A DNA stretch of 34,759 nt from Verrucomicrobiota bacterium (GTDB lineage: Bacteria > Verrucomicrobiota > Verrucomicrobiia > Verrucomicrobiales > Akkermansiaceae), in NCBI GenBank assembly GCA_018969605.1, contig JAGWXY010000017.1, forward strand, positions 1-34,759, written 5' to 3'. A model generated the notes under the pieces. The model had not been told where the DNA came from and did no database searches. It saw nothing but the letters and a program-made list of their open reading frames with translations. The first letter of the stretch is position 1, and each line of letters opens with the position of its first letter. Positions 20,826-26,753 of the stretch are shown piece after piece. The position numbers were made by a program, and so were the translations under genes.

Positions 20826-21299
20826 TTACCTTGTCGAGTCGAGGTAGGCGATGATCGAAGGGATCGCGTTTTCGAGTACCTTGGCGACTTCTTCGTAGGC
20901 GGCGGGGCCCATGCCGATCGGGTCGGGCACATCGAGGCCTTGGCGTTTGTCGGTGATGCCGGAAAACTCGCGGATCAGGAAAAACTTGTCGGCGTGTGAG
21001 GGGAAGCGGCTTTCGAGAGCGGCGAGATGACCTTCGGTCATTGCAAAGACATGAGTGGCGGACTCGAGGATCTTTTCAGTCACTTGGCGGCTGGCGAAAC
21101 CATCGAGATGAGCGCCGCGTTTTTTGAGAGCCTTGAGGGTTTCGCGGCTGGCGGGTGAGCCTTTGGATGCGGCGACACCGGCGGAGCTGGTGGCGACATC
21201 GTCGCGGCCTTCCATGGCTTTGCGAAAGAGACCCTCGGCCATCGGGCTGCGGCAGGTGTTGCCGGTGCAGACGAAAAGGATGTGAAGCGAAGAGGGCAT
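20826..21299 (-). CDS. Low-molecular-weight phosphatase with protein-arginine-phosphatase signature
   Basis: 157 residues. P-loop CTGNTCRS with nucleophile Cys11 and Arg17; general acid Asp126 in DVPDPIG. Thr15 lies where LMW tyrosine phosphatases have Ile or Val (CxGNICRS); in Bacillus YwlE, Thr at this place gives phospho-arginine selectivity, and the string CTGNTCRSPMAE is identical to YwlE. A TTG at 21317 overlapping the galK stop by four bases is an alternative start; ATG 21299 is preferred because it sits at the usual distance from the P-loop. Last gene of the opg/galK cluster. Whether phospho-arginine, phospho-tyrosine or a polysaccharide-related substrate is used cannot be decided from sequence. 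Confidence 0.9.
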   Translation of the reverse strand: MPSSLHILFVCTGNTCRSPMAEGLFRKAMEGRDDVATSSAGVAASKGSPASRETLKALKKRGAHLDGFASRQVTEKILESATHVFAMTEGHLAALESRFPSHADKFFLIREFSGITDKRQGLDVPDPIGMGPAAYEEVAKVLENAIPSIIAYLDSTR

Positions 21300-21313
21300 G
21301 TGGATGCGAAAGC

Positions 21314-22492
21314 TCAAAGAACTCTATGTGCACCTGCCGAAGGTCGCGAGGCGAAAATTTCGGCCGTGAGTCCGGTCTTGGCGTGGTATTCGGCGGCAAG
21401 TTTGCTGGCGATGTCGTTTGCTTTCGCTGATTCGCAAAGCGTGACCGTTGAACCGCCGAAGCCACCGCCGGTCATGCGGGCACCGACCACGCCGCCGCTG
21501 CGGCCAATGCTCTGTGCGGCATCGACGAGGACATCGAGTTCTTTGCAAGAGACTTCGAAATCATCGCGGAGCGATTGGTGCGATGCGGCCATGAGAGGGC
21601 CGAGTTTTTCGAAATCGGCGGCTTTGAGTGTAGCGGCCGCCTCGATGGTGCGGGCGATTTCACCCACGACATGGCGGGCGCGGCGCTTGACCGGATCGCC
21701 GAGTGTTTCCCAATGATTTTCCACATCGGCCATTGTGACATCGCGCCATGAGTTCTTGCCGATGATCTTAAGGGCGTCCTCCGTGTGTTTGCGACGAAGC
21801 GCGTAACCGCCATCGGACAGTTCGTGATGCACCATCGTGTTGGAGATCAGTACGGTGAGGTCGGGATGGGTGAATTGCACAAGCTGCGGCTCGGCCGTCA
21901 TGCAATCGATGAGCACGAGGTGGTCTTTGGCGCCGAAAGCTGAAGCAAATTGATCCATGATGCCGCAGGGCACATGGGCGAAATCGTGTTCGGCCTTTTG
22001 GCAGAGCAGGGCTTTTTCGCGGGTGTCGATTTTCGCACCGAGCAGGCCTTCGAGAAATGTTGCTGTGGCGCATTCCAAGGCGGCGGATGATGAAAGGCCC
22101 GCGCCACCGGGGACGGAGGAAAGGATGTAGGCGTCGAAGCCGGGGATCTTGTGTCCTAGGTTTTGGAACCCGCGAATCACACCGCGCAGGTAGTTGGTCC
22201 ATTTCGGTTCGCCTTCTTCGACTTCATGCGAAACATCGAAACTGGCGATGCCGCCGCCGAGGGCGGTCGCCATGCGGACCGATGAGCTGCCGTTCGGAGC
22301 ACCGGCAATCACGGTGTAGCGATCGATGGCAAAGGGCAGGACGAAGCCATCGCAATAGTCGATGTGTTCGCCGATGAGGTTCACACGGCCGGGGGCGGCG
22401 GCGGTAATGCTGGCCTTGGCATGGAGATTTTCCAGAAGTCCTGCTGCCGCTTTTGCGGCGAGCGATTCGAGTGAAGGTGAAGCTTGAAGCAT
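21314..22492 (-). CDS. galK: Galactokinase
   Basis: 392 residues, GHMP kinase fold. The galactokinase signature GRVNLIGEHIDYCDGFVLP holds Glu42 and Asp45, which bind the sugar. The ATP loop is PGGAGLSSSAALE (128-140); the catalytic Asp180 is in CGIMDQFAS; the third GHMP motif is MTGGGFGGSTV near 340-350. It phosphorylates alpha-D-galactose to galactose-1-phosphate in the Leloir pathway. It begins nine bases after opgH, so it is very likely cotranscribed with the glucan genes; no galT or galE is present in the window. Confidence 0.93.
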   Translation of the reverse strand: MLQASPSLESLAAKAAAGLLENLHAKASITAAAPGRVNLIGEHIDYCDGFVLPFAIDRYTVIAGAPNGSSSVRMATALGGGIASFDVSHEVEEGEPKWTNYLRGVIRGFQNLGHKIPGFDAYILSSVPGGAGLSSSAALECATATFLEGLLGAKIDTREKALLCQKAEHDFAHVPCGIMDQFASAFGAKDHLVLIDCMTAEPQLVQFTHPDLTVLISNTMVHHELSDGGYALRRKHTEDALKIIGKNSWRDVTMADVENHWETLGDPVKRRARHVVGEIARTIEAAATLKAADFEKLGPLMAASHQSLRDDFEVSCKELDVLVDAAQSIGRSGGVVGARMTGGGFGGSTVTLCESAKANDIASKLAAEYHAKTGLTAEIFASRPSAGAHRVL

Positions 22493-22501
22493 GGGTAGGG
22501 A

Positions 22502-24640
22502 TCAGGAGGCGTCGGTGGTTTGATAGAGTCGGCGACGGTAGCTTTGAACCGCTTGCGTCCAGATCGGATGAATGCTGTCGGCAGGGCGGAGCCATACCGC
22601 GCGGTGCATGAGAAGCATCGCGGGACCAAGGTATAGCAGTTCTGAAAGTTCGTTTTTGCTCAGGTCGCCTGGACCTTTGGTAAGGCATCTCTCGGCGAGC
22701 GCTTCTTCATTTTGCCGCAGCTCGAGATTTTCAAGCAACGACACATGGACGCCGTTCACGTACGGATCGACCACTGCGGCGATGACGCCATGGCGATCGT
22801 CGCCTGCCGCATCGAGTGCCGGATCAATGGCGCCTTTTGCTTCTTGTGCGAGAACCATCACGCTTGGCGGATCCCTTTCCTCGGGGATGCTGAGAATGCC
22901 GTGTTTGGCGAGTTTGAGTCCGTACCGCACGCGGCTGGTCCAAACGGAAACCGGCGCGGAAAGCACAAGCCCGAGAAGGATCGGTGAAATCCATCCGGTG
23001 AATGTGAGGTCAATGTTCAACGCGACCACGGTCCACACGATGCCGAGTATGGTTGGAAACAAATGGAAGCGGATTGCGTCGCCCCATGTGGTGCCATCGG
23101 TCTCGCGGTTCTGGTTGCCCCATCCGACGGCGCGGCCGAGCAGGATGCTGATGACCATGAGGGTGTGAGCGGCCATGATGCATGGGGCGAGGAGAATCGA
23201 GACGATGGATTCGAAGGTGACACCCGTCACGATGCGAATGATCCCACCGAAGGACCTGCGGATTTGCGGCACGAAAATCGCGCGCAGCATCGAGAGGATT
23301 TTTGGAAGGAAGAGCAGCGCGAAAATGAAGCAGGTGAGGATGATGCTTTGCTCGATGCCATTGAGTCCGAACAAGCGGTCGACATGGCTTTCGAAGGGCA
23401 GGCGGCTTAGTTCGCTGGTGGAGCGATCCCATGCGATCCAAGTGCCGAGCACGAGGAAAAGGAACCAAAGCGGGCTGCCGAGGTAGGCCATGATGCCCAT
23501 GAAAAGATGCATGCGCACCGAGAATGGCAGCTTGCGCGCGAAGATGAGCCATAGGTGTTGGAGGTTGCCTTGGCACCAGCGGCGGTCGCGGATGAGGTGA
23601 TCGACGAGCGTGGGCGGCGCTTCCTCGTAGGTGCCCTCGATGTCCCATGCGAGCCAGACTTCCCAGCCTTCGGCAACCATCAGTGCCGCTTCGACGAAAT
23701 CGTGGCTGAGGATGCGGCCGCCGAAGGGTTCGCGCCCGGGTAGTGCGGGGAGTTCGCAGAATTCCGAGAAGGGCTTCAGGCGGATCAGCGCGTTGTGGCC
23801 CCAGTAGCTGCCGCCGCCGAGTTGCCAGAAGTTCAGGCCGCGGATGAACACCGGCCCGTAAAGCCGCATGGCGAATTGTTGGAGGCGGGTAAAAACCGAG
23901 GATCCGCGGATGAGCTTGGGCGGCGTCTGAAGAATGCCGAGGCGCGGGTAGGTCTCCATGACGCGAGCCAATTTGACAATGTCGGCACCATCCATCAGGC
24001 TGTCGGCATCGAGCACGAGCATCGCTTCGTAGCCACCGCCCCAGGTGCGGACAAAGTCGCCGATGTTGCCTGCCTTGCGGTTTTCGTTGGTTCTACGGCG
24101 TCTATAGTAGATGCGGCCGAAGCCGTCGAGTTTGCGGCAGAGATTGGTCCATGCCGTTTCCTCCATGACCCAGAGGTCGAGGTCTCGCGTATCGCTGAGG
24201 ATGAAAAAATCGAAAGACTCGAGGTGGCCGGTGGCTTCGATCGAGCGGTAGATTGCCTCGATGCGGGCGCAGGTGCGGGTGCTGTCTTCGTTGTAGACCG
24301 GCATGACCACCGCATGGCGTTTGCCAAGCGGGCCGCTGCGGCCATCGGCAAGTTTCGTGACCCGTGCCGCGCGGCGAACACCAAGCAGCATGTCGATCGC
24401 GCCGAAGATTGCGTGAAACGATCCCAGCGTAAGAAGGCCGTTGAGAAGGATGAAGATCGCCAGCAGCGGGAAGTGGGCTTTTTGCAGGCCCATGCGCCAG
24501 AAGAGGTCGGCGAGCCAGAGGCTGGCGGCGATATTGAAAAGAAGAACGCAGCCGAAGAAGATCGTGCGCCGCACGCGAGTGGCTTTTGCGCTGAAGAACA
24601 CTTTGCCCGAGTCGGGCGGTGAGAGGTCGGCGTGTTCCAT
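22502..24640 (-). CDS. opgH: Osmoregulated periplasmic glucan glucosyltransferase OpgH (MdoH)
   Basis: 712 residues from ATG 24640, shorter than the E. coli protein (about 850). Two N-terminal membrane segments (about 25-50 and 54-80), a cytoplasmic GT2 domain with VVMPVYNEDSTRT, LVLDADSLMDG, ALPGREPFGGRILSHDFVEAALM and the processive DRRWCQGNLQHLW motif, then several C-terminal membrane segments. It uses UDP-glucose to polymerise the beta-glucan backbone and pass it through the inner membrane. Its ATG overlaps the stop of the upstream gene (TGATG), which favours translational coupling; ATG 24661 is an alternative. Pairs functionally with opgG upstream. Confidence 0.93.
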   Translation of the reverse strand: MEHADLSPPDSGKVFFSAKATRVRRTIFFGCVLLFNIAASLWLADLFWRMGLQKAHFPLLAIFILLNGLLTLGSFHAIFGAIDMLLGVRRAARVTKLADGRSGPLGKRHAVVMPVYNEDSTRTCARIEAIYRSIEATGHLESFDFFILSDTRDLDLWVMEETAWTNLCRKLDGFGRIYYRRRRTNENRKAGNIGDFVRTWGGGYEAMLVLDADSLMDGADIVKLARVMETYPRLGILQTPPKLIRGSSVFTRLQQFAMRLYGPVFIRGLNFWQLGGGSYWGHNALIRLKPFSEFCELPALPGREPFGGRILSHDFVEAALMVAEGWEVWLAWDIEGTYEEAPPTLVDHLIRDRRWCQGNLQHLWLIFARKLPFSVRMHLFMGIMAYLGSPLWFLFLVLGTWIAWDRSTSELSRLPFESHVDRLFGLNGIEQSIILTCFIFALLFLPKILSMLRAIFVPQIRRSFGGIIRIVTGVTFESIVSILLAPCIMAAHTLMVISILLGRAVGWGNQNRETDGTTWGDAIRFHLFPTILGIVWTVVALNIDLTFTGWISPILLGLVLSAPVSVWTSRVRYGLKLAKHGILSIPEERDPPSVMVLAQEAKGAIDPALDAAGDDRHGVIAAVVDPYVNGVHVSLLENLELRQNEEALAERCLTKGPGDLSKNELSELLYLGPAMLLMHRAVWLRPADSIHPIWTQAVQSYRRRLYQTTDAS

Positions 24641-25230
24641 CAGTCGAGAAGGAAGAACCATGCGGCCAGCGCGATGATGGCGAGCAGCACGGCGGTGAAC
24701 ATGAGTCGGACGATCGGTTTTCGATCCATCGTTTCCCACCATTGGGCGGCACCGCTGCCGATGGCGTTTAGCTCAAGCGGCTTGGGCACCATGGTGAGGT
24801 TGGCGAATCGCGGCCCGGCGGCGAGATAGGATTTTTTCATCGCCTCGACAAAGGCGGGTGGCCATGGCGGCGGAGTGAGAAACACGCCCTGCCATTTGTC
24901 GGGCATGCCAGCAAGGAGGAGTGCGAGACGGCCGCGGGCTGCGAGACGGCGGTTTTCGAGAGGAACATCGAGCACATCCTGGGTCCAGTTGGCGATTTCG
25001 GTGAGCGCCTCTTCCATCGCGAGAAGTCGGGCTGGCTTGTCGGGCTCATTGGCCCTTCTTGCAGATGCCCGCCACAAAATGCCGCGGACGAGTTCGGCAA
25101 CGAGCAAACGATTGCGCAGGCGAAGCGCTTGCAGATAGGCCTCAACCGCGGTGTAGGCCTCCTCCCACTCGACGAGTTCCTGTTCGCTGAGTGGCGGCAG
25201 GCGGTCTAGGGATTGATGCGATGGACCCAT
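24640..25230 (-). CDS. Unknown C-terminally membrane-anchored protein between opgG and opgH
   Basis: 196 residues; family not recognised. Mostly helical and Arg/Leu/Ala-rich (residues 15-110), then a Pro-rich segment (FLTPPPWPPAFVEAMKKSYL) and a C-terminal transmembrane helix (about 173-195, VRLMFTAVLLAIIALAAWFFLLD), so the bulk should lie on one side of the inner membrane with a tail anchor. It overlaps opgG by 25 bases and opgH by one (TGATG), so its product is made together with both. The position suggests an accessory subunit or regulator of the glucan synthase; this is inference only. Confidence 0.8.
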   Translation of the reverse strand: MGPSHQSLDRLPPLSEQELVEWEEAYTAVEAYLQALRLRNRLLVAELVRGILWRASARRANEPDKPARLLAMEEALTEIANWTQDVLDVPLENRRLAARGRLALLLAGMPDKWQGVFLTPPPWPPAFVEAMKKSYLAAGPRFANLTMVPKPLELNAIGSGAAQWWETMDRKPIVRLMFTAVLLAIIALAAWFFLLD

Positions 25231-26753
25231 GTTTCGGTGAGGTAGTTGTCACCGCGTTTCAGGCAGCAACGTAGCTCGATCGGACCGATGTCTGAAAGTT
25301 TGGATCCTTCGGCCGAAGGAGCGACTTGGAATGCGAGGCGCCAGCGGTCATCGGGAATTTGCTGGAGGTTGACGCCTTGGATGACGACCTTGCCGCCGTT
25401 TTCGCCGATAGCTTCGATATGTGGCGCGATGGGTGATTCGCCGTTTTGTTGGAGGCTGGTGCCTTTGAACTCGACGATGATGGTGCGTTGGCCCGGTTGC
25501 CAGTCGTGAATACCTGTGCGGGTGGCAACCACATGGCCGATCGCTTGGGATGGGTCGGGATCCGTGGTCCAGTGTTGGCGATAGGAAAACTCGATGCGAT
25601 CGCCGGCTTGCGGGATGCGTGCGGGTTCCCACAATGCGACGGTGTTGTCGGTGAGTTCGTTGGTCGTCGGTATTTCCATCAGCATCACGCGGCCGGGGCC
25701 CCAGTCGGAGGTTGGTTCGATCCACAATGACGGACGCAGGTGATAGGCGGCTTCATCGTCCTCGTAGGCGCTGAAGCGGCGGTCGCGTTGAAGGAGACCG
25801 AAGCCATCGCACTTGTCCATGCTGAAGAAGCTGAATTCGAGGCGGCCCGAATCATTGCAGATCGGCCTCCAGATGCGTTCGCCGGTGCCCATGCGGATGG
25901 AGAGGCCATCGGTGTCGTGCACTTCCGGGCGGAAGTCGTCAAAGCGGCGGCGCGAATTTTCGCCGAACCAGAACATGCTCGACATCGGCGCGATGCCGAG
26001 GCGTTGGACAGCGCGGCGGGCAAAGATCACGGCGCGGACTTCGACGATCGTTTCGTTGCCCGGGTGAATTTTGAATGCATAGGCGCCGGTGTAGGAAGGT
26101 CCGTCGAGCAGCGCGTAAATGCGTGCTTGGGTTTCGCCGGGCTGTGGCTTACGCAGCCAGAATTCGCGGAAGTTGGGGAACTCCTCGGTGACGCCTTCAA
26201 TGCCGGTATCGACCGCGATGCCGCGTGATGAGATGCCCCAGCGTTGGTTGCGGCCGAGCGCGCGCCAGTAGCTGGCGCCTTGGAAAACGATCAGTTCGTC
26301 GAAGTAATCGGGGTTGTTGAGTTGGTGGTGGAGGCGGAATCCGGCAAAGCCGCCATCGGGCGGAAGTTCGCCGTGTTTTTGAATGAGTGGGCCGTAATTG
26401 AAGAATGCCTCGGCGAGGCGGATGCGTTGCTGGTGGCTGCTGGTGAATTCATTCAAGGCCACCGGCTCGCGATAAAGGTATCCGGGGTGGAAAAACATCG
26501 CGCGAAAAGGAAGGTTTTCGGCGGCCCACAATGCTTGATTCGGATTGAAGCGGATGTCGCGGTACTGATCGTAGGTTAGGTTGTTCATCCACTCCGGCAA
26601 CGAATCGCGGTTGGGTGGAGTGTAGGGTTTGTTGGCAAGATCCCTAGCTCTGCTCTGAATGCTGTCGAACCCGATGTCTTCGCGTTCCCATGTTTGACCC
26701 AGAACGCTCGGCGCCGCGGCGGCGACCACGAAAAAGAATAATATGCTTCGCAC
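25206..26753 (-). CDS. opgG: Periplasmic glucan biosynthesis protein OpgG (MdoG)
   Basis: 515 residues, close to the family length (about 510). Signal peptide MRSILFFFVVAAAAPSVLG. The whole frame follows the MdoG pattern: FDSIQSRARDLANKPY, LTYDQYRDIRFNPNQALW, FFHPGYLYREPVALNEF, GFRLHHQLNNPDYFDELIVFQGASYWRALG, YALLDGPSYTGAYAF, FWFGENSRRRFDDFRPEVHDTDGLSI, and an Ig-like C-terminal domain (VVIQGVNLQQIPDDRWRLAFQV). OpgG acts in the periplasm on the glucan backbone made by OpgH. First gene of the five-gene unit; the promoter is expected in the 105 bases downstream of mfd. Confidence 0.94.
   Translation of the reverse strand: MRSILFFFVVAAAAPSVLGQTWEREDIGFDSIQSRARDLANKPYTPPNRDSLPEWMNNLTYDQYRDIRFNPNQALWAAENLPFRAMFFHPGYLYREPVALNEFTSSHQQRIRLAEAFFNYGPLIQKHGELPPDGGFAGFRLHHQLNNPDYFDELIVFQGASYWRALGRNQRWGISSRGIAVDTGIEGVTEEFPNFREFWLRKPQPGETQARIYALLDGPSYTGAYAFKIHPGNETIVEVRAVIFARRAVQRLGIAPMSSMFWFGENSRRRFDDFRPEVHDTDGLSIRMGTGERIWRPICNDSGRLEFSFFSMDKCDGFGLLQRDRRFSAYEDDEAAYHLRPSLWIEPTSDWGPGRVMLMEIPTTNELTDNTVALWEPARIPQAGDRIEFSYRQHWTTDPDPSQAIGHVVATRTGIHDWQPGQRTIIVEFKGTSLQQNGESPIAPHIEAIGENGGKVVIQGVNLQQIPDDRWRLAFQVAPSAEGSKLSDIGPIELRCCLKRGDNYLTETWVHRINP

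Follow-up and report, generated by a model that had tools for sequence, protein, structure and literature searches.

A tail-anchored protein family encoded between opgG and opgH in Verrucomicrobiota: a candidate detached N-terminal module of the glucosyltransferase OpgH

To our knowledge, OPG synthesis is known almost exclusively from Proteobacteria. In Escherichia coli K-12, opgG and opgH overlap by 8 nt and, as the original prediction stated, no gene lies between them. In the opgGIH operon that Cogez is said to have described in 2002, opgI is reportedly required for backbone synthesis. A further study shows that opgI of Rhodobacter sphaeroides, an extra opg gene, is already in print, and that opgI and opgH jointly complement an opgH mutant of E. 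coli (PMC10514313). According to a study on E. coli, the N-terminal domain of OpgH (OpgH-N) comprises residues 1-138 and is cytoplasmic (Hill 2013, PMC3723540).

These systems were compared with a locus on a 34,759-nt contig of an Akkermansiaceae bacterium (JAGWXY010000017.1), the whole of which is referred to as the window. A third gene, here called the gap gene, was found between opgG and opgH:

25206..26753, minus strand: opgG (mdoG), periplasmic glucan biosynthesis protein G (PF04349, 581 bits, 2e-174); its start codon (GTG at 26753) is uncertain
24640..25230, minus strand: gap gene, ATG start, 196 aa, a candidate for the N-terminal module of OpgH in detached form (open reading frame and translation, family occurrence)
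24820..25185, minus strand: helical body of the gap protein, residues 16-137 (AlphaFold2 model, pLDDT mostly 70-90)
24784..24813, minus strand: P-x6-M-x-P segment (P140, M147, P149), residues 140-149 (hhalign, column variability, pattern counts)
24646..24717, minus strand: tail anchor formed by a C-terminal membrane helix, residues 172-195 (model helix and hydropathy)
22502..24640, minus strand: opgH (mdoH), glucosyltransferase, 712 aa (NF003958, 782 bits, cut-off 419)

The opgG stop codon ends at 25206, resulting in a 25-nt overlap with the gap gene, while the TGA of the latter (24642-24640) and the ATG of opgH have base 24640 in common (TGATG), a 1-nt overlap. The open-reading-frame coordinates agreed with the overlaps claimed initially, and OpgG, the gap protein and OpgH may be produced in a fixed ratio. 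The overlaps also suggest that the three genes belong to a single operon. A galactokinase-like gene (minus strand, region 20826-22492) begins 10 nt past the opgH stop codon and is followed, with a 4-nt overlap, by a low-molecular-weight phosphatase-like gene. Both genes were named by eye from their translations and possibly extend the opg operon. Elsewhere in the same genome, a second OpgG/OpgD-family gene was detected on contig C11 (L047, 6153-7580), with no OpgH or gap-family match on that contig.

The gap gene is a real, conserved coding gene. Comparison with a homologue (L083) yielded 17, 8 and 67 substitutions at codon positions 1, 2 and 3, respectively, and comparison with three further homologues yielded 24/4/73, 26/11/95 and 30/17/91, a pattern of purifying selection. 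In the AlphaFold2 model (mean pLDDT 72.5), helices span residues 16-35, 41-61, 67-87, 96-106, 109-117 and 125-137, with a final helix at 172-195; residues 144-169 form a low-confidence stretch, a predicted linker. The Pro-rich part consists of LTPPPWPPAF (118-127) and, further on, P140...M147-V-P149, of which P140 and M147 are among the least variable columns. Helix 172-195 is the strongest membrane segment of the protein (Kyte-Doolittle 2.63), and a C-terminal membrane helix was called in 63 of 67 non-redundant family members. A positive-inside check around this helix (25 of the 63 members) gave no information on orientation. The predicted anatomy, a helical body with a Pro-rich segment and a C-terminal membrane helix, was recovered by model, sequence and hydropathy.

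Searches of Pfam, NCBIfam and PDB sequences with the gap protein gave no match (E 10), and Foldseek searches with its model gave no informative structural match (best E 1.7). Scattered weak matches of family members (best GST_N_2, 0.0016, 3 of 58) were taken as chance, and nothing was read into the best VIA-align match (Z 5.3), which was to designed repeats. For the structure alignment, five entries from three loci were dropped and, of the 58 that were kept, the short entry L089 was left out of alignment A2. A sequence search for a solved relative of OpgH returned a single match (chain 9hd7_U), which was judged to be chance, and none that was convincing. In the literature on OpgH/OpgI and periplasmic glucans, including that on Verrucomicrobiota, no description of the gap-gene family was found. 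The gene had been proposed to be an undescribed one between opgG and opgH; this held for the family, for which neither a description nor a library match was found, but not for the slot, whose occupants are known from Rhodobacter (opgI), Sulfitobacter and Leptospira.

The nearest named homologues originated from Akkermansiaceae and related MAGs, Luteolibacter and Haloferula, and more distant ones from Pelagicoccus and Limisphaerales. Among 59 close relatives, the gap protein was found in 39 and OpgH above cut-off also in 39, with both present in 37. The gap protein occurred without OpgH in G020, at a contig end, and in G036, which has an OpgH fragment below cut-off; OpgH occurred without the gap protein in G014, whose opgH is cut by a contig end, and in G037, which has a divergent open reading frame of up to 245 codons upstream of opgH. 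In a phylum sample of 288 genomes, matches to the gap protein, OpgH and OpgG were found in 51, 62 and 60 genomes, respectively, and the gap family was present in 50 of the 62 genomes with OpgH. Homologues lying mostly away from opg genes were looked for and not found, in keeping with the tie to the synthase that had been anticipated: 51 of 52 gap loci in this sample adjoin opgG and/or opgH. Forty-four lie between the two genes, five before opgH with opgG elsewhere, two after opgG with opgH elsewhere, and one near neither; 49 are directly upstream of opgH. The locus near neither gene (E 0.005) belongs to G203, the sole gap-matching genome without OpgH, and this match looks spurious. Genome G156 carries two gap-gene copies, each before its own opgH, the second of which (L187) lacks an opgG. 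Conversely, G055, G070 and G175 have the gap gene with opgG and opgH elsewhere. At 71 of 77 named loci, opgG preceded and opgH followed the gap gene; at the other six one opg gene was absent, for three of them because of a contig end.

Twelve OpgH genomes had no gap match, and ten of these were examined, the remaining two being G129 and G209, congeners of G100 and G112. Nine of the ten have an open reading frame of 112-207 aa directly before opgH, and in the tenth opgH is cut by a contig end. Five of the nine matched the gap-family profile in a local search, while those of G289, G292, G100 and G112 show no clear membrane helix and were unrecognised by the profile. In G100 and G112 (L163 and L164), two tandem opgG-family genes are followed by an open reading frame of 137-138 aa without a clear membrane helix, a different small gene at this position, and then by opgH. 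The locus counts and the two copies in G156 indicated that the gap gene follows opgH more than opgG. With the open reading frames directly before opgH in genomes without a match, they showed that it tracks opgH across Verrucomicrobiota. This tie to opgH favours a role at the synthase.

The relation of the gap protein to OpgH itself was analyzed with a profile of 67 non-redundant members, from which six fragments below 150 aa had been dropped beforehand, and with proteobacterial OpgH N-termini from plasmid-borne copies and E. coli. The profile matched the N-terminal cytoplasmic part of OpgH at one place in E. coli, Klebsiella and two Cupriavidus sequences. Profile-profile alignment with hhalign, from which membrane helices had been removed, gave a score of 33.8 over 38 columns, and the matched region is the segment before the membrane helix of the gap protein. 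The best of 300 column permutations scored 17.4 (0 of 300 as good) and the reversed profile 13.1. As controls for single sequences, 7112 decoy open reading frames and 2000 shuffles were used, of which 5273 and 1630, respectively, received a score. OpgH of C. metallidurans scored 10.7 bits, with one decoy and no shuffle as high, and E. coli OpgH a weak 5.7 bits, which 6 decoys and 7 shuffles equalled or exceeded. The top decoy (16.8 bits) was the weak G203 open reading frame (L178), and two further decoys were the Leptospira and G292 test sequences in stop-to-stop form, so that the decoy counts are upper bounds. The Mitsuaria OpgH N-terminus gave no significant single-sequence match to the profile (1.3 bits).

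The P-x6-M-x-P pattern, which was defined post hoc from an alignment already seen, occurred in 53 of the 67 family members, in all five beta- and gammaproteobacterial OpgH N-termini and in 95 of 7112 decoys, and in one (Bradyrhizobium) of 14 other non-verrucomicrobial OpgH N-termini. It was found in none of 168 verrucomicrobial OpgH N-termini, some of which are long as longest-frame artefacts that run through the gap gene in another frame. OpgH of the window has a short N-terminus that lacks the long extension seen in E. coli. Judged from sequence, the module would thus be carried by OpgH itself, at its N-terminus, or by a separate protein, and the segment would be its detectable common core. 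The order of the genes mirrors that of the domains: the gap gene lies between opgG and the sequence for the catalytic core of OpgH, and its start overlaps the end of opgG, as that of E. coli opgH does. Over the helical N-terminal parts, hhalign detected no similarity between the gap family and E. coli/Cupriavidus OpgH (score 8.0; 120 of 200 permutations as good), and the putative link between gap protein and OpgH-N is one of about 38 columns.

We consider it probable, with some reserve, that the gap protein represents the N-terminal module of OpgH in detached form, held at the membrane by an anchor of its own and acting on the synthase in trans. A reading as a detached part of OpgH was preferred over that of an added new subunit because the conserved stretch just ahead of the membrane helix matches the N-terminal domain that proteobacterial OpgH carries as a fused part. 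Against this reading stand the absence of similarity over the helical parts, the post hoc choice of the pattern, the weak single-sequence scores, the three genomes in which opgH is elsewhere, the four unrecognised open reading frames before opgH, and the OpgH proteins of Azospirillum and Caulobacter described below. The initial proposal of a new subunit or regulator was thus modified: a partner of the synthase is still the best reading, but the protein resembles a separately encoded part of OpgH. A less probable alternative is that the gap protein is an accessory or stabilising subunit specific to OpgH but unrelated to its N-terminal domain, with P-x6-M-x-P as a convergent short docking motif. 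The tie to opgH would fit such a subunit equally well, the helical bodies show no similarity and no fold match was found, and the decoy counts illustrate how easily short motifs arise. A convergent motif is, however, less readily reconciled with a 38-column match that beats all 300 permuted controls, with the identical P-to-M spacing in all five beta/gamma OpgH N-termini, and with a gene order and a position relative to the membrane that agree with those of OpgH-N.

The residues of E. coli OpgH matched by the gap-family profile are 75-102. According to the work on OpgH-N, an 18-residue peptide (83-101) on its own inhibits division and co-localises with FtsZ (Hill 2013, PMC3723540). The matched stretch includes residues 84-101, within this peptide, and FtsZ is present in the genome of the window. 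A gap protein that is mainly a division regulator, carrying the counterpart of the FtsZ-inhibiting segment and dispensable for glucan synthesis, is nevertheless unlikely: the same study reports that OpgH-N still inhibits division when the 18 residues are deleted or substituted by alanine (PMC3723540), and FtsZ occurs in almost all bacteria, so that co-occurrence with opgH points to the synthase and not to FtsZ. A segment conserved for OpgH function may also touch FtsZ in E. coli. Finally, it is highly improbable that the gap gene is a passenger with no functional link to glucan synthesis, kept in the operon by chance, since at named loci with room the outer neighbours were not kept (galK after opgH in 20 of 55, the phosphatase gene in 1 of 55 and mfd upstream in 3 of 64, against both opg genes in 71 of 77) and the gap gene moves with opgH where opgG is elsewhere.

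If the gap protein is a detached OpgH module, the gap gene would encode, as a protein in its own right, the cytoplasmic module that forms part of OpgH itself in beta- and gammaproteobacteria. The helical body and P-x6-M-x-P segment of this protein would then reside in the cytoplasm, and it would be kept beside OpgH by its C-terminal membrane helix rather than by a covalent link. Acting in trans, it would be an accessory subunit of the OpgH glucosyltransferase, most likely docking its segment onto OpgH and thereby allowing or gating the synthesis of glucan. Fusion would require loss of the extra membrane helix for the catalytic domain to stay cytoplasmic, which fits the E. coli layout. The complementation of an E. 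coli opgH mutant by opgI plus opgH is consistent with the pair taking the place of a single fused protein. In Azospirillum, OpgH has a short N-terminus and a gap gene is absent, and Caulobacter OpgH is described as lacking the E. coli extension (PMC11389396). A regulatory or gating part is likelier than a part of the catalytic core because these OpgH proteins exist without the module.

If true, a phylum-wide split form would mean that the N-terminal module can be removed, swapped and purified while the catalytic chain is left untouched, allowing a direct test of whether its role is in glucan synthesis, in the control of division or in both. A testable role would thereby be assigned to a large protein family that has no match in Pfam or NCBIfam.

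With OpgI of R. sphaeroides (opgGIH-opgC), the gap protein would share a small separate gene between opgG and opgH and action together with OpgH. In Sulfitobacter, used as a proxy, the order opgG, 56-aa open reading frame, mdoH, opgC matches the Rhodobacter operon. The 56-aa protein differs from the gap protein in having no membrane helix by eye, and scored -0.1 bits with the gap-family profile (281 decoys as high). It has the motif APLxMPxQxL in common with a fused Sphingomonas OpgH N-terminus (9 of 2000 shuffles as good). An unannotated OpgI-like open reading frame with APLAMPKQAL was also observed between opgG and mdoH in Qingshengfaniella alkalisoli (L193, frame from 2603).

Further counterparts were found on two Leptospira plasmids, which carry open reading frames of 129 aa (L. 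biflexa) and 122 aa (L. kobayashii) between opgG/D and mdoH. They share with the gap gene the slot, a C-terminal membrane helix by eye and an SMVP[RK] segment, which aligned to the gap family with an hhalign score of 22.3 (0 of 200 permutations as good). They differ in their shorter body, and the L. biflexa protein scores weakly with the gap-family profile; the match of the Leptospira N-terminal part to the gap family was borderline (score 15.1, with 14.8 as the highest of 200 permutations and none as good). The OpgH N-terminus thus seems to be split in more than one lineage, and OpgI may represent the same idea in Rhodobacterales.

A broader scheme, which we regard as doubtful, would describe OpgH as modular, with an N-terminal regulatory module that is part of the synthase chain in beta-, gamma- and some alphaproteobacteria, a short separate protein (OpgI) in Rhodobacterales, and a separate tail-anchored one in Verrucomicrobiota and Leptospira. 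The last form would be a dedicated membrane protein that binds both OpgH and FtsZ and so links cell division to the supply of UDP-glucose and the synthesis of envelope glucans. Compared with E. coli OpgH-N, the gap protein has the same P-x6-M-x-P spacing in its pre-membrane segment and is likewise encoded after opgG and ahead of the OpgH core, but it has a separate gene, its own tail anchor and a larger helical body without a detectable sequence match. In the best reading, what is new is a detached form of a known domain and not an unprecedented insertion between opgG and opgH.
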